This document shows positions 20,264 to 39,637 of a DNA stretch of 44,066 nucleotides, piece by piece. The stretch comes from Chromohalobacter beijerinckii (GTDB lineage: Bacteria > Pseudomonadota > Gammaproteobacteria > Pseudomonadales > Halomonadaceae). The notes below the pieces were generated by a model. That model worked only from the letters and a program-made list of their open reading frames with translations, made no database searches and was not told where the DNA came from. Position numbers and translations under genes: made by a program. The stretch spans positions 1 to 44,066 of the forward strand of contig NZ_JAKGAK010000024.1 in NCBI RefSeq assembly GCF_023061185.1, in the 5' to 3' direction. Every line of letters begins with the position of its first letter. Position 1 is the first letter of the stretch.

Positions 20264-20689
<426 letters not shown>

Positions 20690-20716
20690 GGCAAGGGCTG
20701 AAGGGAGACACAATAA

Positions 20717-21967
20717 ATGACTGAAGATATTACACAGCTATCGTACGCGCTCGACACCTTCTATTTCTTGATCGCCGGTGTGCTGGTCATGTGGATGGCC
20801 GCCGGCTTCGCCATGCTCGAAGCGGGCCTGGTCCGCTCCAAGAACACGGCGGAAATCCTGACCAAGAACGTGGTGTTGTTCGCCATCTCTTGCACCATGT
20901 ATCTGCTGTTCAGCTACCACTTGATGTATTCCAGTGGCGCTGGCGGCTTCCTGCCGAGTCTGGGCTTTCTGCTCGGCGGCGAGAACTCCGTCGATCAGGT
21001 AATGGGCAGCAACGGGGATATCTATTATTCCAACCGTGCCGACTTCTTCTTCCAGGTGGTGTTCGTCGCAACCGCCATGTCGATCGTCTCCGGGGCCGTG
21101 GCAGAACGCATGAAACTCTGGGCGTTTCTGGCCTTCGCCGTGGTGATGACCGGGATCATCTATCCGACGTCCGGCTATTGGACCTGGGGCGGTGGCTGGC
21201 TCGCCGAGCTGGGTTATTCCGACTATGCCGGTTCGGGCATCGTCCACATGGCGGGTGCGGCCGCGGCCCTGGCCGGGGTGCTGGTACTCGGGCCGCGCAA
21301 GGGCAAATACGGCAAGAACGGCGCGATCTACGCCATTCCCGGCGCCAACCTGCCGCTGGCGACGCTGGGGACCTTCATCCTGTGGATGGGCTGGTTCGGC
21401 TTCAACGGTGGCAGCGAGCTGATGGTCTCCAACATCGATTCCGCCAATAACATGGCGCAGGTGCTGGTCAACACCAATGCCGCCGCCGCGGGCGGGGTGA
21501 TTGCCGCGCTGATCCTCGCCAAGATCTGGTTCCGCAAGGCGGACCTGACCATGGCGCTCAACGGTGCCATCGCCGGCCTGGTCGCGATCACCGCCGACCC
21601 GCTGTCCCCCACCGGCCTGGGCGCCACGCTCATCGGTGCCGTCGGCGGGCTGCTGGTGGTGGTTTCCATCGTAGCGCTGGACAAGCTCAAGATCGACGAT
21701 CCGGTGGGTGCTATCTCCGCGCACGGCGTGGCCGGCTTGTGGGGTGTTCTGGTGGTGCCTCTTACCAATGCCAGTGCCTCCTTCGGCGCTCAGATCATCG
21801 GCGCCCTCGCCATCTTCCTGTGGTGCTTCATCGCCAGCCTGATCGTATGGCTGATCATCAAGGCCGCGATGGGCGTGCGAGTCAGTGAAGAAGAAGAATA
21901 CGAAGGGGTCGACCTGGCCGAATGCGGTCTGGAAGCCTATCCCGAGTTTTCCGTCGGCAAGAAGTAA
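20717..21967 (+). CDS. amtB: Ammonium channel AmtB
   Basis: Trimeric inner-membrane ammonium transporter, closed by GlnK binding. Seen: 416 residues and about eleven membrane segments. The start is directly in helix 1 (ALDTFYFLIAGVLVMWMAAG) with no cleavable signal peptide. Conserved pore elements include GFAMLEAGLVRSKN, His177 in GIVHMAGAAAALAG, DPLSPTGL and the second pore His in ISAHGVAGLWG. The cytoplasmic tail carries the EEEEYEGVDLAECG stretch. It has AGGGAG upstream and is co-transcribed with glnK. A strong terminator follows. Confidence 0.95.
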   Translation: MTEDITQLSYALDTFYFLIAGVLVMWMAAGFAMLEAGLVRSKNTAEILTKNVVLFAISCTMYLLFSYHLMYSSGAGGFLPSLGFLLGGENSVDQVMGSNGDIYYSNRADFFFQVVFVATAMSIVSGAVAERMKLWAFLAFAVVMTGIIYPTSGYWTWGGGWLAELGYSDYAGSGIVHMAGAAAALAGVLVLGPRKGKYGKNGAIYAIPGANLPLATLGTFILWMGWFGFNGGSELMVSNIDSANNMAQVLVNTNAAAAGGVIAALILAKIWFRKADLTMALNGAIAGLVAITADPLSPTGLGATLIGAVGGLLVVVSIVALDKLKIDDPVGAISAHGVAGLWGVLVVPLTNASASFGAQIIGALAIFLWCFIASLIVWLIIKAAMGVRVSEEEEYEGVDLAECGLEAYPEFSVGKK

Positions 21968-22004
21968 GCAAGCCGACGTACCGAGTGAGCTGGCGTGCTC
22001 CCCT

Positions 22005-22028
22005 GGCCCCCTTCGGGGGGCCTTTTTT
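22005..22028 (+). terminator. Strong terminator after amtB
   Basis: GGCCCCC-TTCG-GGGGGCC (22005-22022) is followed directly by T6. It separates amtB from the second glnK-type gene, which therefore needs its own promoter. Confidence 0.9.
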
Positions 22029-22077
22029 AATCCCGCGACCAGCGGTGTATGCTTGAAAGCATGATCGTTGGGCATAA

Positions 22078-22464
<387 letters not shown>

Positions 22465-23164: not shown

Positions 23165-24049
23165 ATGCTGGATATCAAGTATTACGTATTGATCGACGCC
23201 ATTGCCACCCACGGCACCGTGCACGATGCTGCCGCCGCCATCGGCATCACCCAGCCTGCGGCGACGCATCGCATTCGGGAGATGGAACGCCGCCTGGGCG
23301 TCGCTCTTTTCCATCGCGAAGGACGCCGACTGACGCTTTCCGCCTCGGGCGAGCGGCTGCTCGATACCGCGCACGACGTGCTACCCCGCCTGCGTAGTGC
23401 CGAGCTCGAGGCGTGGCAATTGGCACGCCGGGCCGAACCCGCCTTGCGCCTGGGCATCGGCCCTTACGACACCTTCTCGCGGGCAATTCCACATCTTTAT
23501 GACCAGCATGCGCGCGACATCGATCTGGTCCGCCTGCCCATGGCGGACATGACCACGGCGCTACTCGCCAACCGGGTCGACATGATCTGCATGATCGAGG
23601 TGCCCTCGCAGCGCGGCATCGCTCATCAGCTATTGTTCGAGGAACCGCTGGTGGCCGTTTTGCCGCCCGAGCATCCTTATGCACAGAGCGATGCGGTTCC
23701 CGCCGAGGTTTTCGATCGAGGCCGACATTTCACCTACAGCATCACGCCCGAATCCGGTCATGAATTTGAGCATTTCTTCCAGCCGGCCGGCGTCTATCCT
23801 TCGCACATGGTACAGATCGAGTCGGTGGCCTTGATCCTGGAACTCGTCGCCGCCGGCAAGGGCGTGAGCATTCTCTCGCGCTGGGCCGCGCGAGATGCCC
23901 ATCAGGCAGGGCACGTCGTCATGCGCCCTCTGGCTGGCGAGCTGCCACGCATCCCTTGGTATCTGGCCTATACGCAGACGCCCCACATCACCGCCGCTGC
24001 CGAGTCGATGGCCGCCACACTGCGTCATCTCTACCGCACCGACGACTGA
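23165..24049 (+). CDS. LysR-family transcriptional regulator
   Basis: LysR-type regulator of 294 residues, N-terminal winged helix-turn-helix (GTVHDAAAAIGITQPAATHR, with EMERRLGVALFHREGRR) and a C-terminal co-inducer-binding domain (LRLGIGPYDTFSRAIPHLY, LVAVLPPEHPYA). Within the family the HTH start MLDIKYYVLIDAIATHGT resembles MetR-like members. It is read in the same direction as, and 182 bases before, the oxygenase/M24/binding-protein operon, and is the most likely regulator of that operon, with the ligand unknown. The intergenic region contains four 14-nt tandem repeats. Confidence 0.88.
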   Translation: MLDIKYYVLIDAIATHGTVHDAAAAIGITQPAATHRIREMERRLGVALFHREGRRLTLSASGERLLDTAHDVLPRLRSAELEAWQLARRAEPALRLGIGPYDTFSRAIPHLYDQHARDIDLVRLPMADMTTALLANRVDMICMIEVPSQRGIAHQLLFEEPLVAVLPPEHPYAQSDAVPAEVFDRGRHFTYSITPESGHEFEHFFQPAGVYPSHMVQIESVALILELVAAGKGVSILSRWAARDAHQAGHVVMRPLAGELPRIPWYLAYTQTPHITAAAESMAATLRHLYRTDD

Positions 24050-24155
24050 GACAAGACGCCATCTGCTACAACGCACGCGATCGATAAGAATCTCGTCGCA
24101 GATGGCCGGACATTCTCATTAGTTTCACGCCCTCCCTCCTTTTACCGTATCGCTA

Positions 24156-24231: not shown

Positions 24232-25128
24232 ATGTCACAGGCCACGCTCGCAACTCAAACTACCGCACAGGACGTCACCGCCGAGCATCATCCCCTGGCG
24301 CGTTTCATCGACCTCGAACGCTATCCGATCCTGGAGCGCGATAGCGACGCCTACCGGGCCACTGTCGAGGGCGTGCGCGATCAACTACGCACCGACGGCT
24401 GCGCCCTGTTGTCGAAGTTCATCCGCGAGGACCTCATCGAACCGCTGCGCGAGGAAAGCGAGGCCCTGGCGCCCAAGGCGTTCTACTCGGACAACAACGT
24501 CAATCCCTACGTCACGCCGGACGATCCGTCGCTGCCCGAGGATCACCCCGCTCGCTTCTTCCAGCACTACACCAATGGCTTCGTGGCGCGCGACCTGATC
24601 CCCGAGGACGCCATCGTCCAGCAGCTCTATCGCGACCCCGACTTTCAACGCTTCGTCGCCGATTGCCTCGAAGAGCCGGTGATTTACGAGTTCGCCGACC
24701 CCATCGCGGGGCTGGTCATCAACGTGATGCCCGACGACACCGAGCTGCCCTGGCATTTCGATACCAACGAATTCATCGTCAGCCTGATGACGCGGCGCCC
24801 CAACGAAGGCGGCGAATTCCAATACGCCCCCAGCATCCGCCGTCCCGGCGAGGAGAACTTCGCGGCCGTGAAACGCGTGCTCGAGGGCGACCACACCGAC
24901 GTCGAATCGCTGACGCTCAACACCGGTGACCTGCAGCTCTTCAAGGGGCGCTACTCCATGCACCGCGTCGCCGCCGCCAAGGGGCAGCGTCTGTGCACCC
25001 TGCTCGGCTACGCCAAGACGCCCGACATGATGGGTAGCCTGGAGCACACCCGGCGCATCTACGGTCGCGTCACCCAGCAACACATCGATGCTGACAATCA
25101 GCGCCGTCACGACGCGCTCATGGGCTAA
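24232..25128 (+). CDS. Fe(II)/2-oxoglutarate-dependent oxygenase
   Basis: Predicted non-heme iron oxygenase; substrate unknown. Seen: 298 residues, double-stranded beta-helix motifs with the facial triad His175 and Asp177 (PWHFDTNEF) and the distal His244 (YSMHRVAA), followed by Arg253 as probable 2-oxoglutarate ligand (GQRLCTLLGYA). Because the second ligand is Asp and not Gly/Ala, it should hydroxylate or oxidise, not halogenate. The N-terminal half (SKFIREDLIEPLREE, HPARFFQHYTNGF) fits the group sometimes called ArpA-like. It has AGGAGGG upstream and heads an operon with an M24-type enzyme (57-base gap) and a betaine-type binding protein (59-base gap), so a small zwitterionic substrate is plausible. 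Confidence 0.75.
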   Translation: MSQATLATQTTAQDVTAEHHPLARFIDLERYPILERDSDAYRATVEGVRDQLRTDGCALLSKFIREDLIEPLREESEALAPKAFYSDNNVNPYVTPDDPSLPEDHPARFFQHYTNGFVARDLIPEDAIVQQLYRDPDFQRFVADCLEEPVIYEFADPIAGLVINVMPDDTELPWHFDTNEFIVSLMTRRPNEGGEFQYAPSIRRPGEENFAAVKRVLEGDHTDVESLTLNTGDLQLFKGRYSMHRVAAAKGQRLCTLLGYAKTPDMMGSLEHTRRIYGRVTQQHIDADNQRRHDALMG

Positions 25129-25185
25129 CACCGCCTCGCGTACGTCACCAAGCGTCTCGTTCACTCTTTACAAGGATGCCTTTCA

Positions 25186-26454
25186 ATGGGCGATATCGTA
25201 TCACTCGCCGGGTCCGTCCCCACGGGCGGCCCCTACACCGACGGCGGCTTCCGTCACGCCACGCTCGACGCCGCGCTGCTCTCGCGCGTCGAGCGCTACC
25301 GGCTGCAACGCCTGCGCCAGCAGATGAAGCATCACGAACTGGACGCGGTGATCCTGTTCGATCCCATCAACATTCGCTATGCCTGCGGCGTGCGCAACAT
25401 GCAGGTTTACTCGCAGCGCAACCCGGCGCGCTACCTCTACGTCGCGGCGGACGGCCCGGTGGTGCTGTTTGAGTTCAGCGCCTGCCTGCACCTGGCGGCC
25501 AACGCCGAATTGCTCGACGAGGTGCATCCCGCCCGCGCGGTGATGCCGCAATACAGCGGCCCGCGCTGCGCGGCGCATACCCAGGCCTTCGTCGACGACA
25601 TCCGCGGTCTATTCGAGCGTTCGCATACCCAGGGGCAACGCCTGGGCATCGAGTCCGCGCCCACCGGCGCCATCGAGGCACTGGGTCAGGCTGGCTTCGA
25701 GCTGACCGATGCCGCTACCGTGGTCGAGGGCGCCAAGTCGATCAAGAGTGTCGACGAGCTGGCGCTCATCCACCGCTCCGTGACGCTGACCGAAGCCGCG
25801 ATGACGCGTATGGAAGCCGCCATTCGCCCCGGCATGAGCGAAAACGAGCTGTGGTCGATCTTCAACCAGCATGTGCTGGCCACTGGCGGCGAATACGCCG
25901 AGACTCGGCTTCTCAGCTCCGGCGCGCGCACCAATCCATGGTTCCAGGAGTGCTCGGATAAGATCATCGCCCCGGGTGAGCTGGTCGCCTTCGATACCGA
26001 TATCGTGGGCTGCTTCGGCTACTACACGGATTTCTCGCGGACCTTCCACGTGCCCGGCGCAGGCGCGCCCAACGCCGAGCAGAAGGCGCTTTATCGCATG
26101 GCCGCCGACCAGCTCGAACGCAACATCGCCCTGCTGCGCCCCGGCATGAGCTTTCGCGACTACTCGCAACAAGCGTGGCCGATACCCGACGGCTATCGTG
26201 AAAATCGCTACTTGGACATCGTCCACGGCTGCGGCATGACCGGCGAATGGCCGCTTATCGCCCACGACATGGACTGGGACGAGGTCGGCTACGATGGCGC
26301 CATCGAGCCCGGTATGACGCTCTGCGTCGAGGCCTATATCGGCCACCGTGACGGCACCGAGGGCGTCAAGTTGGAAGAACAGGTGCTAATCACCGAAGAT
26401 GGCATCGAACGCCTCTCGACCTACGGCTATTCCGACACGCTGATGGCAGAATGA
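25186..26454 (+). CDS. M24-fold enzyme related to DMSP lyase DddP
   Basis: Creatinase/prolidase (M24) fold protein of 422 residues. The metal site DTDIVGCFGYYTDFSRT gives Asp270, Asp272 and Asp282, followed by His347, Glu382 and Glu397. The D-x-D-x9-D spacing and the later intervals (H to E 35, E to E 15) match those I recall for DddP (D295, D297, D307, H371, E406, E421). Ordinary M24 peptidases have D-x10-D instead. At the position of the DddP catalytic base Asp377 (HGxGxxD) this protein has Gly353, with Glu354 next to it. So it is DddP-like in metal chemistry but probably not a standard DMSP lyase. It could cleave another betaine or an oxidised product of the upstream oxygenase. Cytoplasmic. 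Confidence 0.65.
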   Translation: MGDIVSLAGSVPTGGPYTDGGFRHATLDAALLSRVERYRLQRLRQQMKHHELDAVILFDPINIRYACGVRNMQVYSQRNPARYLYVAADGPVVLFEFSACLHLAANAELLDEVHPARAVMPQYSGPRCAAHTQAFVDDIRGLFERSHTQGQRLGIESAPTGAIEALGQAGFELTDAATVVEGAKSIKSVDELALIHRSVTLTEAAMTRMEAAIRPGMSENELWSIFNQHVLATGGEYAETRLLSSGARTNPWFQECSDKIIAPGELVAFDTDIVGCFGYYTDFSRTFHVPGAGAPNAEQKALYRMAADQLERNIALLRPGMSFRDYSQQAWPIPDGYRENRYLDIVHGCGMTGEWPLIAHDMDWDEVGYDGAIEPGMTLCVEAYIGHRDGTEGVKLEEQVLITEDGIERLSTYGYSDTLMAE

Positions 26455-26513
26455 CGCCATAGCGCAGCACCCTTTCTCATCCCTTTCGATTCACCCACAC
26501 AAAAAGGACGCGT

Positions 26514-27368
26514 ATGAAACCGTTGACTTCCCTTTTCGTCGCCTGTGGCCTGGCCGGTATCTCGATGACCGCCACGGCCAACGACACGCTGACCATCGGC
26601 ACCAACAACTGGTCGGAAAACATCGCCGTCTCGCACATGTGGCAGCAATTGCTCGAAGAGCAAGGCTACGACGTCAACCTGACGACTACCGGCAAGAGCG
26701 TGCTCTTCAGCGGACTGGCGCAGGGCGATCTGGATATCTCGTTGGAAGTCTGGCTGCCGCATGGCGACGCCCAGTACATCAAGCCCTACGAGGACAAGAT
26801 CGACGTTCACGATGCCTGGTTCGACGGCGCCCAGGACGAACTGGTGGTGCCGGCTTACATGGAAGACATCGACAGCATTAGTGACCTCAAGGACAACGCC
26901 GAGCGCTTCGTCTACCAGAATGAACCGACCATCATCGGCATCGAATCGGGCTCGGCCATCTCCGGCGAGACCGAAAACGCCATCGAGAGTTACGATCTGC
27001 CGTTCCGCCAGTTGAACAGCTCCGGGCCCGCCATGCTCGCGGCCCTAGAGGAAGCCTATGCCAACGAAGAGCCCGTCGCCGTCACGCTATGGCAGCCGCA
27101 CTGGGCCTACGCGCAGTACGACCTCAAGGCGCTGAAAGATCCCAAGAAAAGCTATGGCGGCGGTGACGACATCATGTGGATGTCGCCCAAGGGCTTTGGC
27201 GAGGAGCACCCCGAAGTCACCAAGATGCTCGATGCCTGGCACATGAGCCACGCCCAGTTGGCCGATCTCATGTTGACCATCGAAAACGTCGGCGATCCCA
27301 CGCAAGGCGCCAAACAGTGGATCGAGGAACATCGCGATCTCATCGACGGCTGGCTCGTCGAGGACTGA
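26514..27368 (+). CDS. Glycine betaine/carnitine-type periplasmic binding protein
   Basis: Substrate-binding protein of the OpuAC/ProX family for quaternary amines. Seen: signal peptide ending ATA (about residue 22), then TIGTNNWSENIAVSHMWQQL, VWLPHGDA and WQPHWAYAQYD with tryptophans that would form the aromatic cage for a trimethylammonium group. 284 residues, strongly acidic. AAGGA precedes ATG 26514. No permease or ATPase gene lies beside it, so it must share a transporter encoded elsewhere, as P. aeruginosa CaiX does next to its carnitine genes. It could bring in the substrate of the preceding enzymes or carnitine/gamma-butyrobetaine for the genes that follow. Confidence 0.88.
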   Translation: MKPLTSLFVACGLAGISMTATANDTLTIGTNNWSENIAVSHMWQQLLEEQGYDVNLTTTGKSVLFSGLAQGDLDISLEVWLPHGDAQYIKPYEDKIDVHDAWFDGAQDELVVPAYMEDIDSISDLKDNAERFVYQNEPTIIGIESGSAISGETENAIESYDLPFRQLNSSGPAMLAALEEAYANEEPVAVTLWQPHWAYAQYDLKALKDPKKSYGGGDDIMWMSPKGFGEEHPEVTKMLDAWHMSHAQLADLMLTIENVGDPTQGAKQWIEEHRDLIDGWLVED

Positions 27369-27377
27369 TCCCATTCC

Positions 27378-27400
27378 GGGCCGGTCGTCAGGACCGGCCC
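27378..27400 (+). terminator. Stem-loop after the binding-protein gene
   Basis: GGGCCGGTC/GACCGGCCC forms a perfect 9-bp GC-rich stem with a 5-base loop, 10 bases after the stop. A T-tract is lacking. It marks the likely end of the oxygenase operon. Confidence 0.55.
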
Positions 27401-32797: not shown

Positions 32798-33553
32798 GTG
32801 ATCACGAACCCAGAGACCCAACCGACCCGTGGCACCCAACTCTCGGAGCAGGTCGCACGGCAGCTGACGCACGCCATCCATACCGGCGACATGCGCCCCG
32901 GGGAGCGTTTGCCCACCGAGGCCGCGCTCGGCGAACGCTATGGCATCAGCCGTTCGGTGGTGCGCGAGGCCATTTCCATGCTGCGTAACGCCGGCCTGGT
33001 GACATCGCGTCGCGGCAGCGGCAGCTTCGTCGCCGAGGTGCCCACCGTGGCACTGCGCCTGGCGATTCCCGACCCATCGCTGCAATCGGTCATCCGTCTT
33101 CTCGAACTGCGCCGGGCCCTGGAGGTCGAGGCGGCGCGTCTGGCGGCGCAGCGCCGCACGCCGTCCCAATTGCGCCGAATCCGTAATGCCATGGCCGATA
33201 TCGACGAGGCCGTCGAAATCGGTGCCGATGGTGTCGATCAGGACATGGCCTTTCACCGCGCCATCGCCGAGGCGTCGAACAACACGCACTTCACGGCAAT
33301 CATCGACTTCTACAATCGCTTCCTGCATCACGCCATTACCGTGACGCGAACCAATGAATCGCTACGCGAAACGTTCATGGCGCAGGTCATCGAAGAGCAT
33401 CAAGCAATCGTCGATGCCATCGACCAAGGCGACGAAGACGCCGCCGCCCAGGCCGCCGCGCGCCACCTCGAGCATGCCGAGTGGCGCCTGCGACAGGCGC
33501 CGACGGATCTGCTGGAACGTCTCGAGGACACCGCAACCGACACGCCGGTCTGA
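32798..33553 (+). CDS. GntR-family regulator (FadR/FCD subfamily)
   Basis: Probable repressor of the threonate operon. Seen: 251 residues; N-terminal winged helix (LSEQVARQLTHAIHTGDM; LPTEAALGERYGISRSVVRE) and an all-helical FCD effector domain (LLELRRALEVEAARLAAQRR; metal-site pattern DMAFHRAIAEASNN and later EEHQAIVDAI). It starts with GTG 32798 after AAGGAGAAGGAA. The ltnD gene follows 59 bases on in the same direction, and an operator-like palindrome overlaps its own promoter. The inducer is presumably threonate or a pathway intermediate. Confidence 0.9.
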   Translation: MITNPETQPTRGTQLSEQVARQLTHAIHTGDMRPGERLPTEAALGERYGISRSVVREAISMLRNAGLVTSRRGSGSFVAEVPTVALRLAIPDPSLQSVIRLLELRRALEVEAARLAAQRRTPSQLRRIRNAMADIDEAVEIGADGVDQDMAFHRAIAEASNNTHFTAIIDFYNRFLHHAITVTRTNESLRETFMAQVIEEHQAIVDAIDQGDEDAAAQAAARHLEHAEWRLRQAPTDLLERLEDTATDTPV

Positions 33554-33612
33554 TCAATGGCCGTTCTGACCAACGACCGTTTCATCAAAGAACCACAGAC
33601 AAGGAACGCGAG

Positions 33613-34545
33613 ATGACACAAGCACGACGCGCGCGGGTGGGGATCATCGGCCTGGGGTCGATGGGAATGGGCATGGCGACGTCATTGGTCGATGCCGGCT
33701 TCACGACCTGGGGATGCGACCTGCGACCCGACGCCAGGCAGGCATTCGACGCGCACGGTGGCCGGGCGGTTGCCACGCCCGCCGAGATGGCCGCTCACGT
33801 CGATGTCGTCGTCAGCGTGGTCGTCAATGCCGAGCAAACCCGTGAGGTTCTGTTCGGCCCCCAGGGCATCGCCGACGGCCTGGCGTCCGGCAGCGTCATC
33901 GTCTCATGCGCTACCTGCGCGCCGGATGCCGTGGTCGCCCTGGGCGATGAGCTCTCCACCCGGGGCCTGCGCCTGCTCGACGCGCCGATTTCCGGTGGTG
34001 CCGCCAAGGCCGCGCAAGGCGCGCTGACGATCATGGCCTCGGGACCGGCCGATGTTTTCGACAGCGTCGAGGAGGTTCTCGATGCCCTCGCCGCCAAGGT
34101 CTTCCGCCTTGGCGACGCGATGGGACAGGGTTCGCAGGTCAAACTGGTCAACCAACTGTTGGCGGGGGTGCACATCGCCGCTGCCGCCGAGGCCATGGCC
34201 TATGGCATTCGCGGCGGCTGCGACCCACAGGTGCTGTATGAGGTCATCACCCAGAGTGCTGGTAATTCATGGATGTTCGAGAATCGCGTGCCGCACATTC
34301 TCGAGGACGATTACACGCCGCGCTCGGCAGTGGACATCTTCGTCAAGGATCTGGGCCTGGTCCACGACACTGCCCATCGCGACAAGTTTCCCCTGCCGCT
34401 GACCAGCCAAGCGCTCACCATGTTTACCCAAGCCTCGGCACAAGGCCATGGCGGCGACGATGACGCTGCCGTGATCAAGACGTTTCCGGGCTTCGGGTTG
34501 CCATCTCACGCGGCCAACGATGCCGACACAGGGGAGGAGGAATGA
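33613..34545 (+). CDS. ltnD: L-threonate dehydrogenase
   Basis: NAD-dependent beta-hydroxyacid dehydrogenase family member; in this context oxidises L-threonate to 2-oxo-tetronate. Seen: Rossmann motif VGIIGLGSMGMGMATSL, substrate loop DAPISGGAAKAAQGALTIM, catalytic Lys in GQGSQVKLVNQLLAGVHIA, and the C-terminal domain with DIFVKDLGLVHDTAH. 310 residues from ATG 33613 with AAGGAA upstream. Its stop overlaps the kinase start by 4 bases. Alternatives such as D-erythronate dehydrogenase or 3-hydroxyisobutyrate dehydrogenase cannot be excluded by sequence, but the presence of OtnI favours LtnD. Confidence 0.88.
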   Translation: MTQARRARVGIIGLGSMGMGMATSLVDAGFTTWGCDLRPDARQAFDAHGGRAVATPAEMAAHVDVVVSVVVNAEQTREVLFGPQGIADGLASGSVIVSCATCAPDAVVALGDELSTRGLRLLDAPISGGAAKAAQGALTIMASGPADVFDSVEEVLDALAAKVFRLGDAMGQGSQVKLVNQLLAGVHIAAAAEAMAYGIRGGCDPQVLYEVITQSAGNSWMFENRVPHILEDDYTPRSAVDIFVKDLGLVHDTAHRDKFPLPLTSQALTMFTQASAQGHGGDDDAAVIKTFPGFGLPSHAANDADTGEEE

Positions 34546-35813
34546 CGATGCCCATCATCGGATGCATTGCCGACGATTTCACCGGCGCAACGGACGTGGC
34601 GAGCATGCTGGTCAGTGCCGGCATGCGCACGCTGCAGACCATCGGCGTCCCTACAACGTCACTGGACGATGACGTCGAGGCCGTGGTCGTCGCCCTCAAG
34701 TCGCGCACCCTGCCCGCCGACGAGGCCGTATCGCAGTCTCTCGAGGCGTTGGCGTGGTTGCAGGCCCAGGGCTGCGAGCAGTTCTACTTCAAGTACTGCT
34801 CGACGTTCGACTCCACACCCGCGGGCAACATCGGGCCGGTGACCGACGCGCTGATGACGTCGCTTGGCACTGACTTCACCGTGGCCTGCCCGGCACTGCC
34901 CGCCAACCAGCGCACCGTCTACAACGGCTACCTGTTCGCGGGGGGCGTGCCGCTCAACGAAAGCGGCATGCAGGACCACCCTCTCACGCCCATGACGGAT
35001 GCCAATCTGGTGCGCGTTCTCGGCGCCCAGACGCACCAGCGGGTCGACCTGATCGACTACGCCACGCTCAGCGAGGGGGCTGAGGCCGTCGAGGCCCGCA
35101 TCCAGGCGCTGCGTTCGGCGGGCGTGGGCATCGCCATTTGCGACGCCATCGACACGCAACATTTGCATACCCTGGCGCGCGCCTGTCGTCATTTGCCCCT
35201 GGTGACCGCCGGCTCCGGCCTGGCATTGGGGCTACCCGCTAACCTGGCCGATCGGTTGCCTGCGGCGGGACAAGCCGATGCATTACCCGCCATCGCCGGT
35301 CGAGAAGCGATCTTGAGCGGCAGCTGTTCGCGCGCCACCCTGGCGCAGCTCGAACATGCCCGCGAGCACTACCCGAGCTATCACCTCGACGCCCTGGCCT
35401 TGGCCGATGATTTCGAAGGCGTCATCGCGAAGGCACTCGCGCTGGCCGAAGAGCATCTCGACCGTGGCCCGGTACTGCTGTATGCCAGTGCCTCGCCGGA
35501 AGACGTGCGACGGGCGCAGGAGGTCCTCGGCGTCGCGGAAGCGGGGGCCCTGGTCGAACGCGCCATGGCCGAGATCGCCCAGTCCCTCGTCGAGCACCAT
35601 GGCGTGCGGCGCTTGCTCGTGGCGGGAGGCGAAACCTCCGGCGCGGTGGTCAACGCGCTTGGGGTGCAAGGCTTGCGCATCGGCCCGAGCATCGATCCCG
35701 GCGTGCCCTGGACCACCACCTTTGGCACCCCGGCGCCGCTCGCCCTGACCCTCAAGTCGGGCAACTTCGGCGCCCGGGACTTCATGACCAAGGCATGGGG
35801 GATGTTGCCATGA
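34542..35813 (+). CDS. otnK: 3-Oxo-tetronate kinase OtnK (four-carbon acid sugar kinase)
   Basis: DUF1537-family kinase that phosphorylates 3-oxo-tetronate at position 4. Seen: 423 residues; N-terminal IGCIADDFTGATDVASML with the substrate-binding Asp pair, KYCSTFDSTPAGNIGPVTDAL, and a C-terminal nucleotide-binding domain with LLVAGGETSGAVVNALG and a final LKSGNFGARDFMTKA, all typical. It overlaps ltnD at its start and otnC at its end by 4 bases each, so the operon is tightly coupled. Confidence 0.93.
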   Translation: MTMPIIGCIADDFTGATDVASMLVSAGMRTLQTIGVPTTSLDDDVEAVVVALKSRTLPADEAVSQSLEALAWLQAQGCEQFYFKYCSTFDSTPAGNIGPVTDALMTSLGTDFTVACPALPANQRTVYNGYLFAGGVPLNESGMQDHPLTPMTDANLVRVLGAQTHQRVDLIDYATLSEGAEAVEARIQALRSAGVGIAICDAIDTQHLHTLARACRHLPLVTAGSGLALGLPANLADRLPAAGQADALPAIAGREAILSGSCSRATLAQLEHAREHYPSYHLDALALADDFEGVIAKALALAEEHLDRGPVLLYASASPEDVRRAQEVLGVAEAGALVERAMAEIAQSLVEHHGVRRLLVAGGETSGAVVNALGVQGLRIGPSIDPGVPWTTTFGTPAPLALTLKSGNFGARDFMTKAWGMLP

Positions 35814-36469
35814 GCCACATCAGCACCACGACCACCGAAAATCGCCTGCGCGAGGAGATCGCCGACATCGGTCGTGCCTTCCGGCTACTGGGCATGGCGC
35901 CGGGCACCTCCGGCAACATCAGCGCCAAGCTCGATGACGGCTGGCTGATGACGCCGACCAACGCCAGCCTCGGCGCCCTCGATCCCGCCGCGATTTCCAA
36001 ACTTGACTGGGACGGCAACCTGCTCGACGGCGCGCCACCGACCAAGGAATCGTTCCTGCATCGCGCCTTCTACGATCAGCGTCCCGATACCGGCGGCATC
36101 ATTCATTTGCATGCCACGCACTCGGCGGCGGTCTCGTGTCTCAACGGCCTCGATGAACGCTCCTGTCTGCCTCCCATCACACCGTATTTCGTCATGCGCG
36201 TGGGGCGTTTGCCGCTGATTCCTTACTATCGCCCCGGCGATCCCGCCCTCGGCGACGCGATACGCGAGCATGCCAAGACCCATGGCGCGGTGTTGCTGGC
36301 CAATCACGGCCCCGTGGTGGCGGGCAAAACCCTGGAAGCGGCACGCAACGCCATCGAGGAACTGGAAGAAACCGCCAAGCTGTATCTCCTGCTACGCCAG
36401 CACGACGTACGCACCCTGGGCGAAGCGGAAATCGACGAGCTTCGTCAGGCCTTCGGCGCCCACTGGTAA
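35810..36469 (+). CDS. otnC: 3-Oxo-tetronate 4-phosphate decarboxylase OtnC (class II aldolase fold)
   Basis: Zinc-dependent enzyme of the class II aldolase/adducin family that decarboxylates 3-oxo-tetronate 4-phosphate to dihydroxyacetone phosphate. Seen: 219 residues; LGMAPGTSGNISAKLDDG phosphate-binding region, TKESFLHRAFYDQRPD with catalytic Glu, zinc motif HLHATHS, and the third His in LANHGPVVAG. ATG 35810 overlaps the otnK stop; the open frame five codons upstream is not needed. Its product enters glycolysis. Confidence 0.92.
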   Translation: MSHISTTTTENRLREEIADIGRAFRLLGMAPGTSGNISAKLDDGWLMTPTNASLGALDPAAISKLDWDGNLLDGAPPTKESFLHRAFYDQRPDTGGIIHLHATHSAAVSCLNGLDERSCLPPITPYFVMRVGRLPLIPYYRPGDPALGDAIREHAKTHGAVLLANHGPVVAGKTLEAARNAIEELEETAKLYLLLRQHDVRTLGEAEIDELRQAFGAHW

Positions 36470-36493
36470 GCATTTTCTGAAAGGAGCCTCCCC

Positions 36494-37282
36494 ATGCCCC
36501 GCTTTGCCGCCAACCTGTCCATGATGTTCAACGAGGTGCCCTTCATGGAGCGCTTCGCCGCGGCCGCCGCCTGCGGCTTCGAAGGGGTCGAGTTCCTGTT
36601 TCCCTATGCGTTCGCGGCCGATGACATCGCCGCCGAGTTGAAACGTCATGGCTTGCAGCAGGCGCTGTTCAACCTGCCGCCGGGCGACTGGGACGCCGGC
36701 GAGCGCGGCATCGCCGCCCTGCCGGGGCGCGAGGCGGAGTTCCGCGAAAGCGTCGAGACTGCGATTCGTTACGCCCGGGCGCTGAACTGTCCGCGTCTGC
36801 ACGCCATGGCAGGGCTGGCACCTGAGGGTGTTTCACGGGAAACATGGCGCGCGGTGTATCTGGACAACCTGCGCCATGCCGCCCGCCGCCTCGCCGAGCA
36901 CGACCTCGAATTGCTGCTCGAGCCCATCAATACCCGCGACATGCCGGGGTACTGCCTCAATCATCAGGCCGAGGGGCACGCCATCGTGGCCGAACTGGGC
37001 GAGCCCAACGTCAAGGTGCAGATGGATTTCTACCACACCCAGATCATGGATGGAGATATCTGGACGACCTATCGGCGTCATCGCTCAGGGGTCGGCCACA
37101 TTCAGATCGCTGGCGTTCCCGAGCGTCACGAACCCGATACCGGGGAAGTGAATTATCCGTGGCTTTTCCAACAGTTGGACGCAGACGGGTTCGAGGGTTG
37201 GATCGGCTGTGAGTACAAGCCCCGTGCCGGCACGCGGGCGGGACTGGGATGGTTCGAGGCGTGGAAACGGCCAGCCGGCTAG
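36494..37282 (+). CDS. otnI: 2-Oxo-tetronate isomerase OtnI (hydroxypyruvate isomerase family)
   Basis: TIM-barrel isomerase converting 2-oxo-tetronate to 3-oxo-tetronate, supplying the OtnK substrate. Seen: 262 residues; MPRFAANLSMMFNEVPFMER at the N-terminus, catalytic and metal residues in LLLEPINTRDMPGYCLN, VQMDFYHTQI, HIQIAGVPERHEP and IGCEYKPRAGT. AAAGGAG lies before ATG 36494, 24 bases after otnC. Sequence relatives include Hyi; the operon decides for OtnI. Last gene of the threonate operon, no transporter gene being attached. Confidence 0.9.
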   Translation: MPRFAANLSMMFNEVPFMERFAAAAACGFEGVEFLFPYAFAADDIAAELKRHGLQQALFNLPPGDWDAGERGIAALPGREAEFRESVETAIRYARALNCPRLHAMAGLAPEGVSRETWRAVYLDNLRHAARRLAEHDLELLLEPINTRDMPGYCLNHQAEGHAIVAELGEPNVKVQMDFYHTQIMDGDIWTTYRRHRSGVGHIQIAGVPERHEPDTGEVNYPWLFQQLDADGFEGWIGCEYKPRAGTRAGLGWFEAWKRPAG

Positions 37283-37340: not shown

Positions 37341-39551
37341 TCAGAACGAATAGGTCAGGGTCGAGGTCACCCGTCGTGGTTCGCCATAGACACCGTAGGT
37401 GTCGAAATAACTGTAGTACTTCTCGTCGAACAGATTCTTCACGTTGACCTGTAGCGCCAGCTGCGGCGTGAACTGGTAACGACCGAAGACATTCGCGACC
37501 GCGTAACTGCTCTGCTCGTAATCGCGGGTTCCGCCGCCGGGCGCGGCCTGGTCGTCGATGAAGGTGTCGCTCTGCCATCTAGCGCCTCCACCGATCGTCA
37601 GCTGACGCCACTGAGGTACACGGTAGCTGGCGAAGAGATTGGCTTGAGTACGCGGGCGGTCGGTGTTGAACGAGCCTTCCGCGGACGTCGCCGTGTAGTG
37701 GGTAAAGCCGACCGTCATATCGAGATCGTCGGTCACCGCACCGGTCAGCTCGGCCTCGAAGCCTTCGCTGACCACGTCACTGACCGGGGTCGCGGTGGTG
37801 ATGAGCGAGCCGGGCGTACTGACGATATCGGCCACGTTGTCCTGCTCGAGCCGGAACACCGAGAACGAGGCGTTGAGCAATCCCTCGAACCAGGCCGCCT
37901 TGATGCCGGTCTCGTAGTTCTTGCCCACGAGGGGATCCAGATAGCCGTTGCCGCCCTCCAGGCGATAGCTCTGTGGCTGGAAAATCTCGCTATAGCTCAA
38001 GTAAGTGGACCAGACATCGTTGATGTCATAGACCAGGCCGCCATACGGGGTGATGTCGTCTTCGTCCTGCGAATGGTTGCCCAGGCCGCTCGACCAGGTG
38101 CTGCCATGCCAGTCGGTATAGCGAGCGCCGACGATCAGCGTCAGCGGATCAGCCAGCGAGAATCGCGCAACGCCATAGACCGCCTTCTGCCGCACACTGG
38201 CGCTTTCCGACTGAGAAAACGCCGGCCAATCAAGGTCGTCTGTCGCCCCGCCCCAGTTGTCGAAGTCGCCTACGTCGATAGCGGCAGACGTATAACTGTT
38301 TTCGTAATCGTTACTTTGATCGCTGTAGCTGCCTCCAACGACTAGCTCATGTTCGCGACCGAATAACTCGAAAGGACCTTTCACATAAGCGTCGGCAGAA
38401 TCCACATCACGATCGCCGCGATTCCAGCCAGTATAAAAGGCAGGCCCTTGCCCCGTTATCGGATCTGGTGACGAAAAATAGGGCTCGTAGTAGGGCGCCA
38501 TCAGGCGGGAGTCCAAATCCGTCTCTTCATGGGTCGCCGTGCCGCGCAGCTCCCAACCGTTGTCGAAGCGATGGTCGATCTGCGCGAATACTTTCTTCGA
38601 TTCGTAATCGCTGTAGGACCAGTCCGGGGCCACGCTGAACGAGCGGCTGTAATCCGTCTCGCTGCCATCGCTGTACCAGAGCGGCAATCCGCCCCAGGTC
38701 GGCGACGAGGCATGAGTGTTCTGGTAGTCGTAACCCACCGACAGGGTGGTGCGATCGGTCACGTCCGCATCGATCACCGCGTAGCCGAACTTCTCACGCT
38801 CGGCGTAGCGGTCCAGAGAGGAGTCGCTGTCGTCGTAGCCGCCGACGAACCGCGCCCGCACATTGCCGGACGGCGTCAGCGGGGTGGTGACATCGACCAC
38901 GCCGCGGCGCTGGTCCCAGCTACCCAGCGTGCCGGACACCGACCCCGTCAGCTCGCGGCTGTCGGCGTGCTTGCGCACGAAATTGACCGAGGCACCGGGG
39001 TTCCCCGCGCCCGTCATCAGGCCGTTGGCGCCGCGCACCACCTCGACCCGATCATAGATCGCCGTGTTTTGGGAGCCCTCGCCGAAGTACCAGCGACTGT
39101 CCGTGTTGAGCGTGGGAATGCCATCGTATTGATAGCTGTTGATGCGAAAGCCGCGTGAGTAGAACGACACACGGTTGCTGTCGATGCGGCTGGCGGAGAT
39201 GCCCGTGGTGTTGGTGAGGACCTCTTCGATGTCCTGTAGATCCTGATCCTCGATGCGCTGCTCGGTGACGATGCTGAGCGCCTGTGGCACCTCCTTGGGG
39301 CTCAGCTCGAAACGCGTGCCCGCCGCGGTGGTGCGGCGCGTATAGCCGACATTGTCATAGAGGTTCACGGCTGTGACCGTCACCGTATCCAGCTCAGGTG
39401 CCTCATCGGACTGTGCCCATGCCGAGGAGAAGGGAAGCACTGAGACGGTGGAGAAAAACGCGATCGGTAACGCGCGGCTGCGAAGAAAATGCGCGCGGAC
39501 TTGGCCGCACGACTGGCCCGACTCGTACGGCCGACAGGAAGGTTTGTTCAT
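37341..39551 (-). CDS. TonB-dependent siderophore receptor
   Basis: Outer-membrane receptor for a ferric siderophore of the FhuE/FpvA/FoxA type. Seen: signal peptide (basic start, hydrophobic segment ending SAWA), TonB box DTVTVTA, plug domain with SPKEVPQALSIVTEQRIEDQ (in part) and VEVVRGANGLMTGAGNPGASV, then a 22-strand barrel ending NVKNLFDEKYYS and RRVTSTLTYSF with terminal Phe. 736 residues from ATG 39551 (MNKPSCRP), which has AAGGGA upstream; the frame is open to 39632. A Fur-like box lies 87 bases upstream. The exact siderophore is unknown and no biosynthesis genes are near. Confidence 0.93.
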   Translation of the reverse strand: MNKPSCRPYESGQSCGQVRAHFLRSRALPIAFFSTVSVLPFSSAWAQSDEAPELDTVTVTAVNLYDNVGYTRRTTAAGTRFELSPKEVPQALSIVTEQRIEDQDLQDIEEVLTNTTGISASRIDSNRVSFYSRGFRINSYQYDGIPTLNTDSRWYFGEGSQNTAIYDRVEVVRGANGLMTGAGNPGASVNFVRKHADSRELTGSVSGTLGSWDQRRGVVDVTTPLTPSGNVRARFVGGYDDSDSSLDRYAEREKFGYAVIDADVTDRTTLSVGYDYQNTHASSPTWGGLPLWYSDGSETDYSRSFSVAPDWSYSDYESKKVFAQIDHRFDNGWELRGTATHEETDLDSRLMAPYYEPYFSSPDPITGQGPAFYTGWNRGDRDVDSADAYVKGPFELFGREHELVVGGSYSDQSNDYENSYTSAAIDVGDFDNWGGATDDLDWPAFSQSESASVRQKAVYGVARFSLADPLTLIVGARYTDWHGSTWSSGLGNHSQDEDDITPYGGLVYDINDVWSTYLSYSEIFQPQSYRLEGGNGYLDPLVGKNYETGIKAAWFEGLLNASFSVFRLEQDNVADIVSTPGSLITTATPVSDVVSEGFEAELTGAVTDDLDMTVGFTHYTATSAEGSFNTDRPRTQANLFASYRVPQWRQLTIGGGARWQSDTFIDDQAAPGGGTRDYEQSSYAVANVFGRYQFTPQLALQVNVKNLFDEKYYSYFDTYGVYGEPRRVTSTLTYSF

Positions 39552-39637
39552 TGTGTTCCCTTGAGGACGCGTCATGGGCGTCACTTTCATGAGGCATTTC
39601 CGAAGCGCGAAGTATGGAAACCCTCGACTCAAGAGTC

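Follow-up and report, generated by a model that had tools for sequence, protein, structure and literature searches.

For the dimethylsulfoniopropionate (DMSP) lyase DddP, a published study favours Asp377 as the catalytic base (PMC4108388), and in the halophile Vreelandella boliviensis, MgdH–MgdL are reported to demethylate methylguanidine in two steps, a dioxygenase reaction followed by a lyase reaction (PMC12508155). We analysed a 44,066-nucleotide stretch of Chromohalobacter beijerinckii (contig NZ_JAKGAK010000024.1, hereafter the window), in which a LysR-family regulator gene precedes genes for an Fe(II)/2-oxoglutarate (2OG) oxygenase, a DddP-related metalloenzyme of the M24 family and an OpuAC-type binding protein. 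The oxygenase and M24 genes form a pair that is co-inherited and not brought together by chance. We tentatively favour the reading that the locus is a catabolic operon under LysR control and serves to break down an imported compound of the quaternary-ammonium (betaine) type, which would first be oxidized and then undergo metal-dependent C–N cleavage by the M24 enzyme. The features of the locus are:

23165..24049, plus strand: LysR-family regulator, PF00126/PF03466 above cut-off
24083..24122, plus strand: candidate LysR operator, an imperfect inverted repeat (GATAAGAAT...ATTCTCATTAG) in the gap between the LysR and oxygenase genes, putative function
24232..25128, plus strand: Fe(II)/2OG oxygenase of the HalD/BesD fold, predicted hydroxylase type (HxD, not the halogenase HxG), 298 amino acids
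25186..26454, plus strand: M24 pita-bread metalloenzyme of a DddP-related subfamily, Gly353 at the place of DddP Asp377, 422 amino acids, PF00557 112.5 bits
26514..27368, plus strand: OpuAC-type periplasmic binding protein with a Trp prism (W33/W80/W193), 284 amino acids, PF04069 229.7 bits, nearest solved structure OpuAC 2b4l
27378..27400, plus strand: GC-rich hairpin 3' of the binding-protein gene, probable operon end, −21.8 kcal/mol, z −2.4

The initial annotation of this DNA had described three plus-strand genes side by side with a LysR gene 5' of them, and the open reading frames lie exactly where it placed them, separated from LysR onwards by 182, 57 and 59 bp. It had also named a finding that would sink its pathway idea, the two enzymes being unlinked elsewhere, and this did not occur. 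Searching the same 151 Halomonadaceae genomes with the oxygenase and with the M24 protein (E 1e-40 for the latter), we found 107 oxygenase places in 70 genomes, up to four in a genome, and 113 M24 places in 69 genomes. The M24 gene lay directly 3' of the oxygenase gene and on the same strand in 101 of the 107 oxygenase places, at a gap of 37–342 bp; among oxygenases with at least 40% identity, 101 of 102 places were paired. Single genomes contained multiple paralogous pairs, and the distances between the oxygenases correlated with those between the M24 proteins (r = 0.971 for 45 adjacent pairs, one place, L089/L207, entering twice), a value reached by 0 of 2,000 permutations. Given the linkage and a correlation of r = 0.97, the pairing is not a chance arrangement. 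Outside the Halomonadaceae, the pair was also adjacent in Marinomonas, Amphritea, Pseudomonas sp. MPC6 and Caballeronia sp. SBC2 and, in another class of the phylum, in the genomes G166 (twice) and G460. When the M24 relatives were considered instead, a HalD-type oxygenase was found within 4.5 kb of 44 of the 86 relatives grouping with the window's enzyme versus 1 of the 36 grouping with DddP. One Halomonadaceae pair (L022, genome G046) has internal stop codons and is probably decaying. The host genome (G000) has a paralogous set of its own on contig C23 (L083), where one strand encodes a HalD oxygenase and an M24 enzyme together with an OpuAC binding protein and a further 2OG oxygenase (PF03171).

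The oxygenase matched the HalD family PF23169 at 49.6 bits, above the cut-off of 26, and has the BesD/HalD fold. Residues H175, D177, H244 and R253 were invariant across 20 alignment rows, and D177 was paired with a Gly in the halogenase HalB and with an Asp in the lysine hydroxylase. As D177 is invariant, the halogenase signature of Gly replacing the metal-binding Asp was not found, and the alignment indicates an enzyme of hydroxylase (HxD) rather than halogenase (HxG) type. The BesD/HalA-E halogenases carry HxG, and the window's oxygenase resembles their lysine hydroxylase homologue in carrying HxD; structural alignments gave only 13–18% identity to these proteins and, unlike that family, the window's oxygenase is linked to betaine-type genes. 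More distant HalD-type oxygenases on plasmids of Pantoea and other enterobacteria (e.g., H6, H9-H13 and H17) overlap or adjoin a DUF2817/M14 metallopeptidase gene, a further case of an oxygenase paired with a metallopeptidase.

The M24 protein, of which Chromohalobacter sp. 11-W has a 100% identical copy, matched Peptidase_M24 (112.5 bits) and Creatinase_N (41.6 bits) in Pfam and is 34% identical to RlDddP. The DddP-like metal site noticed in the initial annotation is indeed there: the six metal residues of DddP (Asp295, Asp297, Asp307, His371, Glu406 and Glu421) are all present, as D270, D272, D282, H347, E382 and E397, and 121 of the 122 M24 relatives aligned retained them. Fold family, metal site, Tyr366 and a common tree are shared with DddP, whereas the surrounding active site is not. 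The switched residues of the window's enzyme are G353, R70, R78, Y75 and Y280, and the changes relative to DddP are Asp377 to Gly, Trp95 to Tyr, His98 and Thr90 to Arg, and Cys305 to Tyr. In the tree of the 122 relatives, the window's enzyme belongs to one side, of 86 rows, and DddP to the other, of 36 rows; both sides are starred. On the window's side, position 377 was Gly in 86 of 86 rows, position 305 Tyr or Phe in 86 of 86 and position 95 Tyr or Phe in 84 of 86, while Arg occupied positions 90 and 98 in 85 of 86, the remaining row lacking that region; on the DddP side, we found Asp377 in 35, Cys305 in 34, Trp95 in 34 and His98 in 33 of the 36 rows. Because Asp377 is replaced by Gly throughout and other active-site positions switch alongside it, the alignment places the window's enzyme in a distinct subfamily that is related to DddP but is not DddP. 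The score against the DddP model NF043017 (330.6 bits, cut-off 600) falls well short and, with the loss of Asp377, speaks against DMSP cleavage by the DddP mechanism; a DddP-type lyase is not supported. Ectoine hydrolase was likewise rejected (TIGR02993, 38.1 bits versus 613; NF038259, 61.5 versus 575). That enzyme, DoeA, also has an M24 fold and acts on a compatible solute but, unlike the window's protein, lacks the metal residues in the alignment; it is encoded separately in the host genome (C23:186515, 644.6 bits, cut-off 613).

The third gene had been annotated as a quaternary-amine type binding protein, and both its Pfam match and the three-tryptophan prism seen in the alignment agree with this. 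It was present in all 18 window-type orthologous loci (L032-L047, L052 and L053), in two of which (L037 and L053) an extra gene lies between it and the M24 gene. The host genome, assembled to 3.34 Mb in 60 contigs, contains 15 OpuAC-domain matches, spread over 14 places, and a single ChoW-like permease (318 bits, under the cut-off of 363). In Pseudomonas, several Cbc binding proteins share one permease, and by analogy it is possible that the window's binding protein shares a permease with others. The gene for a GbcA-type glycine betaine monooxygenase lies in another part of the genome (830 bits, cut-off 670).

The neighbourhoods of the M24 relatives showed an association with betaine-type transporters and demethylase-type genes. 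In the sister sub-clade, comprising Marinomonas, Amphritea and four Halomonad places, a BCCT transporter was near the M24 gene in 8 of 9 distinct loci (4/5 in Marinomonas/Amphritea, 4/4 in the Halomonad places). In a group of 54 places, picked by an identity of at most 47% to the window and with G078 and G109 falling elsewhere in the tree, a methylmalonate-semialdehyde dehydrogenase (MMSDH)-family gene (660.9 bits, cut-off 448.5) stood directly 3' of the M24 gene in at least 28 places, a count that rests on the best 31 dehydrogenase rows among the matches listed. This is as expected if a semialdehyde is released. A starred clade of 19 M24 rows combines nine from Halomonadaceae and from two genomes of another class, all accompanied by the oxygenase, with ten of Sinorhizobium/Shinella type that adjoin an isochorismatase-family gene; three of these ten also have a glycine-betaine-type ABC transporter and, within 4.5 kb, an MttB-family gene, whose product has glycine betaine methyltransferase as its nearest solved structure. 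The Halomonad M24s of this clade, part of the MMSDH group, are 63–67% identical to that on pSymA of Sinorhizobium meliloti, the neighbours of which are proteins of the MttB and isochorismatase families, a GlxA regulator and an ABC transporter of the glycine-betaine type. The binding protein and ATPase of this transporter have counterparts at L209 and L214 with 53–59% identity, and a single locus (L148, in G460) has the oxygenase, the M24 enzyme and an MttB-like gene together.

Among the Asp377-type relatives, those of Rhizobium and Caballeronia occur with Rieske oxygenase and reductase genes. The nearest solved structures to the Rieske oxygenase of R. anhuiense were 4qup ("demethylase") and 3vca, which we take to be stachydrine demethylases, and its score against the GbcA model was 409.7 versus a cut-off of 670. 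Some of the Rieske-type loci contain a 4-hydroxyproline epimerase gene (575 bits, cut-off 376), and two loci of Rhizobium relatives have Gfa/FghA genes for formaldehyde detoxification. Quaternary amines, and reactions that demethylate or cleave them, are what the neighbourhoods have in common. A link to hydroxyproline-betaine epimerase was rejected, as the mandelate-racemase-family neighbour of the S. meliloti M24 gene is not close to the sequence of 4e8g/4izg/4j1o (81 bits), presumably HpbD, and as these entries were absent from the 11 matches at 1e-40 of the mandelate-racemase-family protein upstream in the Pseudomonas MPC6 region. A beta-alanine route through an AptA aminotransferase and MMSDH, seen at L088 beside a member of a distant oxygenase clade, was dropped after none of 4 other genomes with this clade showed it.

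In the mechanism that we propose, the binding protein would catch the cation in its tryptophan prism and pass it to a permease whose gene lies elsewhere. The HalD/BesD-fold oxygenase would then hydroxylate the compound on a methyl group or on a carbon next to the nitrogen, filling the slot occupied in some of the rhizobial clusters by Rieske- or MttB-type genes, and the dinuclear M24 enzyme would cleave a C–N bond of the oxidized product to yield an amine and a carbonyl fragment, using a metal-bound hydroxide or Lewis acid instead of the Asp base of DddP. The substrate, the site of hydroxylation, the order of the steps and the bond cleaved are what we infer; a quaternary amine is suggested by the binding protein in 18/18 window-type loci, the BCCT transporters near the sister sub-clade and the demethylase-type genes near the relatives. 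The initial annotation had arrived at a similar scheme, of which the conserved oxygenase/M24 pair, the DddP-like metal site and the idea of betaine-type oxidation and cleavage are retained, whereas a DddP-type lyase and a feed into the adjacent carnitine genes are not supported.

Several observations weigh against this scheme. The position of the carboxylate-contacting His of Bacillus subtilis OpuAC, which we take to be His230, is Asp85 in the window's protein and also Asp in the aligned window-type relatives, which leaves room for a ligand other than a simple betaine, and no permease gene adjoins the binding-protein gene at the window locus. MMSDH was not seen in 26 of the 54 places of its group, among the matches listed, nor beside the window's own M24 gene. 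Rieske neighbours occurred only beside Asp377-type relatives (8 rows versus 0 in the window's clade), and MttB was near 4 of the 86 rows in the window's clade versus 6 of the 36 on the DddP side; the argument from a shared slot thus rests on few loci, and for this reason we reduced our confidence in the favoured reading slightly. The linkage fades beyond close orthologues: of 23 proteobacterial genomes matching the oxygenase profile, the pair was side by side in 7 and not in 16, the matches in the latter being under 200 bits in 12 and about 300 bits in 4. Finally, the M24 reaction does not always depend on the oxygenase, since the M24 gene occurred without it in 12 of the 113 Halomonadaceae places and in 21 of 21 loci of Bacilli, within the flanks fetched.

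This asymmetry, M24 without oxygenase and hardly ever the reverse, fits the favoured order of steps as well as the opposite one, in which the M24 enzyme acts first, or alone, to hydrolyse an imported quaternary-ammonium conjugate or ring and the oxygenase then N-demethylates or hydroxylates the released betaine. We consider the opposite order rather unlikely, even if it has points in its favour. In 20 of the 21 Bacilli loci the M24 gene lies behind a GntR gene, in 5 of the 21 a nearby BCCT or OpuAC gene was detected, and besides GntR no gene family was common to more than 6 of the 21 flanks; conversely, an oxygenase of at least 40% identity lacked the M24 gene in just 1 of 102 places. An isochorismatase-family gene adjoins M24 in the ten rhizobial-type rows, and the two arginines specific to the window's clade, conserved in all but one of its rows, might bind the substrate carboxylate, as arginines do in creatinase. 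The role of these arginines is, however, read from the alignment alone, and the gene order oxygenase–M24–(MMSDH) suggests that the oxygenase acts first.

We judge it improbable that the M24 protein acts as a DddP-like lyase that splits an onium propionate (DMSP or beta-alanine betaine) by beta-elimination and passes acrylate or malonate semialdehyde to MMSDH. The identity to RlDddP, the retained metal residues and Tyr366, and the MMSDH-family neighbour in one group are as such a lyase would have them, but the residue favoured as base in the DddP study (PMC4108388) is Gly in all 86 clade rows, Trp95 is Tyr or Phe in 84, the DddP model score is low and the window's own M24 gene lacks the MMSDH neighbour. 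Lower still do we rate the chance that the operon is a loose grouping in which the M24 protein works as an ordinary X-Pro dipeptidase: public records annotate relatives as Xaa-Pro peptidase family, yet the prolidase model PepQ gave only 66.7 bits versus a cut-off of 630, and the gene is linked to the oxygenase and to betaine-type transport genes.

Each of the 18 window-type loci has a LysR gene of the window type (at least 73% identity) 5' of the pair. The element at 24083-24122 could be aligned between the window and those 11 of the 18 loci that were compared, with 16 of 40 bases invariant, and its inverted repeat is a candidate LysR operator. A promoter scan found no sigma-70 promoters. We regard the hairpin 3' of the binding-protein gene as the probable end of the operon; it has no T-run, and the terminator scan did not pick it up. 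Downstream of it lies a separate carnitine-type block with a GbdR/CdhR-like regulator and a gamma-butyrobetaine-dioxygenase-like TauD protein, the carnitine-dehydrogenase-like genes being on the opposite strand; its NCBIfam scores are high but under the equivalog cut-offs. The initial annotation had suggested that the released amine could feed the adjacent betaine network. As the CdhR/GbdR-like gene was close to the cluster in only 8 of the 18 orthologous loci, the carnitine genes look incidental, and a carnitine pathway step or a conserved CdhR-CdhABC-type neighbourhood was rejected. Elsewhere in the window, positions 33481-37282 contain an L-threonate/tetronate catabolic cluster (threonate dehydrogenase, oxo-tetronate kinase, decarboxylase and isomerase, all above NCBIfam cut-offs), positions 20294-22464 a PII (GlnK)-AmtB-GlnK-like array, recognized by eye from the translations as an ammonium-transporter-like reading frame between two similar PII-like ones, and positions 37341-39632 on the minus strand an FhuE-like TonB siderophore receptor (809 bits, cut-off 666).

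Betaines are abundant osmolytes and nitrogen carriers of saline habitats, and their breakdown sets the release of amine, formaldehyde and trimethylamine. A conserved two-enzyme set, with at least one oxygenase place in 70 of the 151 Halomonadaceae genomes, could explain growth on osmolytes outside the known pathways. If the favoured reading is true, it would show the rebuilding of the DddP scaffold away from DMSP cleavage. Counts of DMSP lyases may also be inflated by DddP-like matches: a relative with 42% identity on an Oceanisphaera plasmid, known by identity and label only and not by its residue 377, already bears the label dddP.

The initial annotation knew of no described pathway with this pairing, and we found no description of the pair in the open-access literature, subscription papers not being covered; the M24 family may already have a name. 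In our reading, the locus would be a betaine-type catabolic operon set apart by its unusual enzyme pair. The Rieske-type (GbcAB/Stc2-like) and MttB-type clusters of rhizobia also include M24 relatives, LysR and GlxA regulators and glycine-betaine-type ABC transporters, but the oxidative or demethylating enzyme at the window is a HalD-type 2OG oxygenase, and the Rieske clusters carry Asp377-type M24s. The MgdH–MgdL system (PMC12508155) similarly couples a 2OG dioxygenase to a dedicated second enzyme in a halophile operon but differs in its guanidine substrate and riboswitch control, and may be taken as a functional parallel only, a precedent for the dioxygenase-then-lyase order. Still more cautiously than for the window itself, we suggest that a HalD-fold 2OG hydroxylase with an Asp377-less, dinuclear, C–N cleaving M24 enzyme may form a third route into quaternary-amine catabolism, beside the Rieske demethylases and the corrinoid MttB-type methyltransferases, with several paralogous sets in a halophile genome, each for a different osmolyte.

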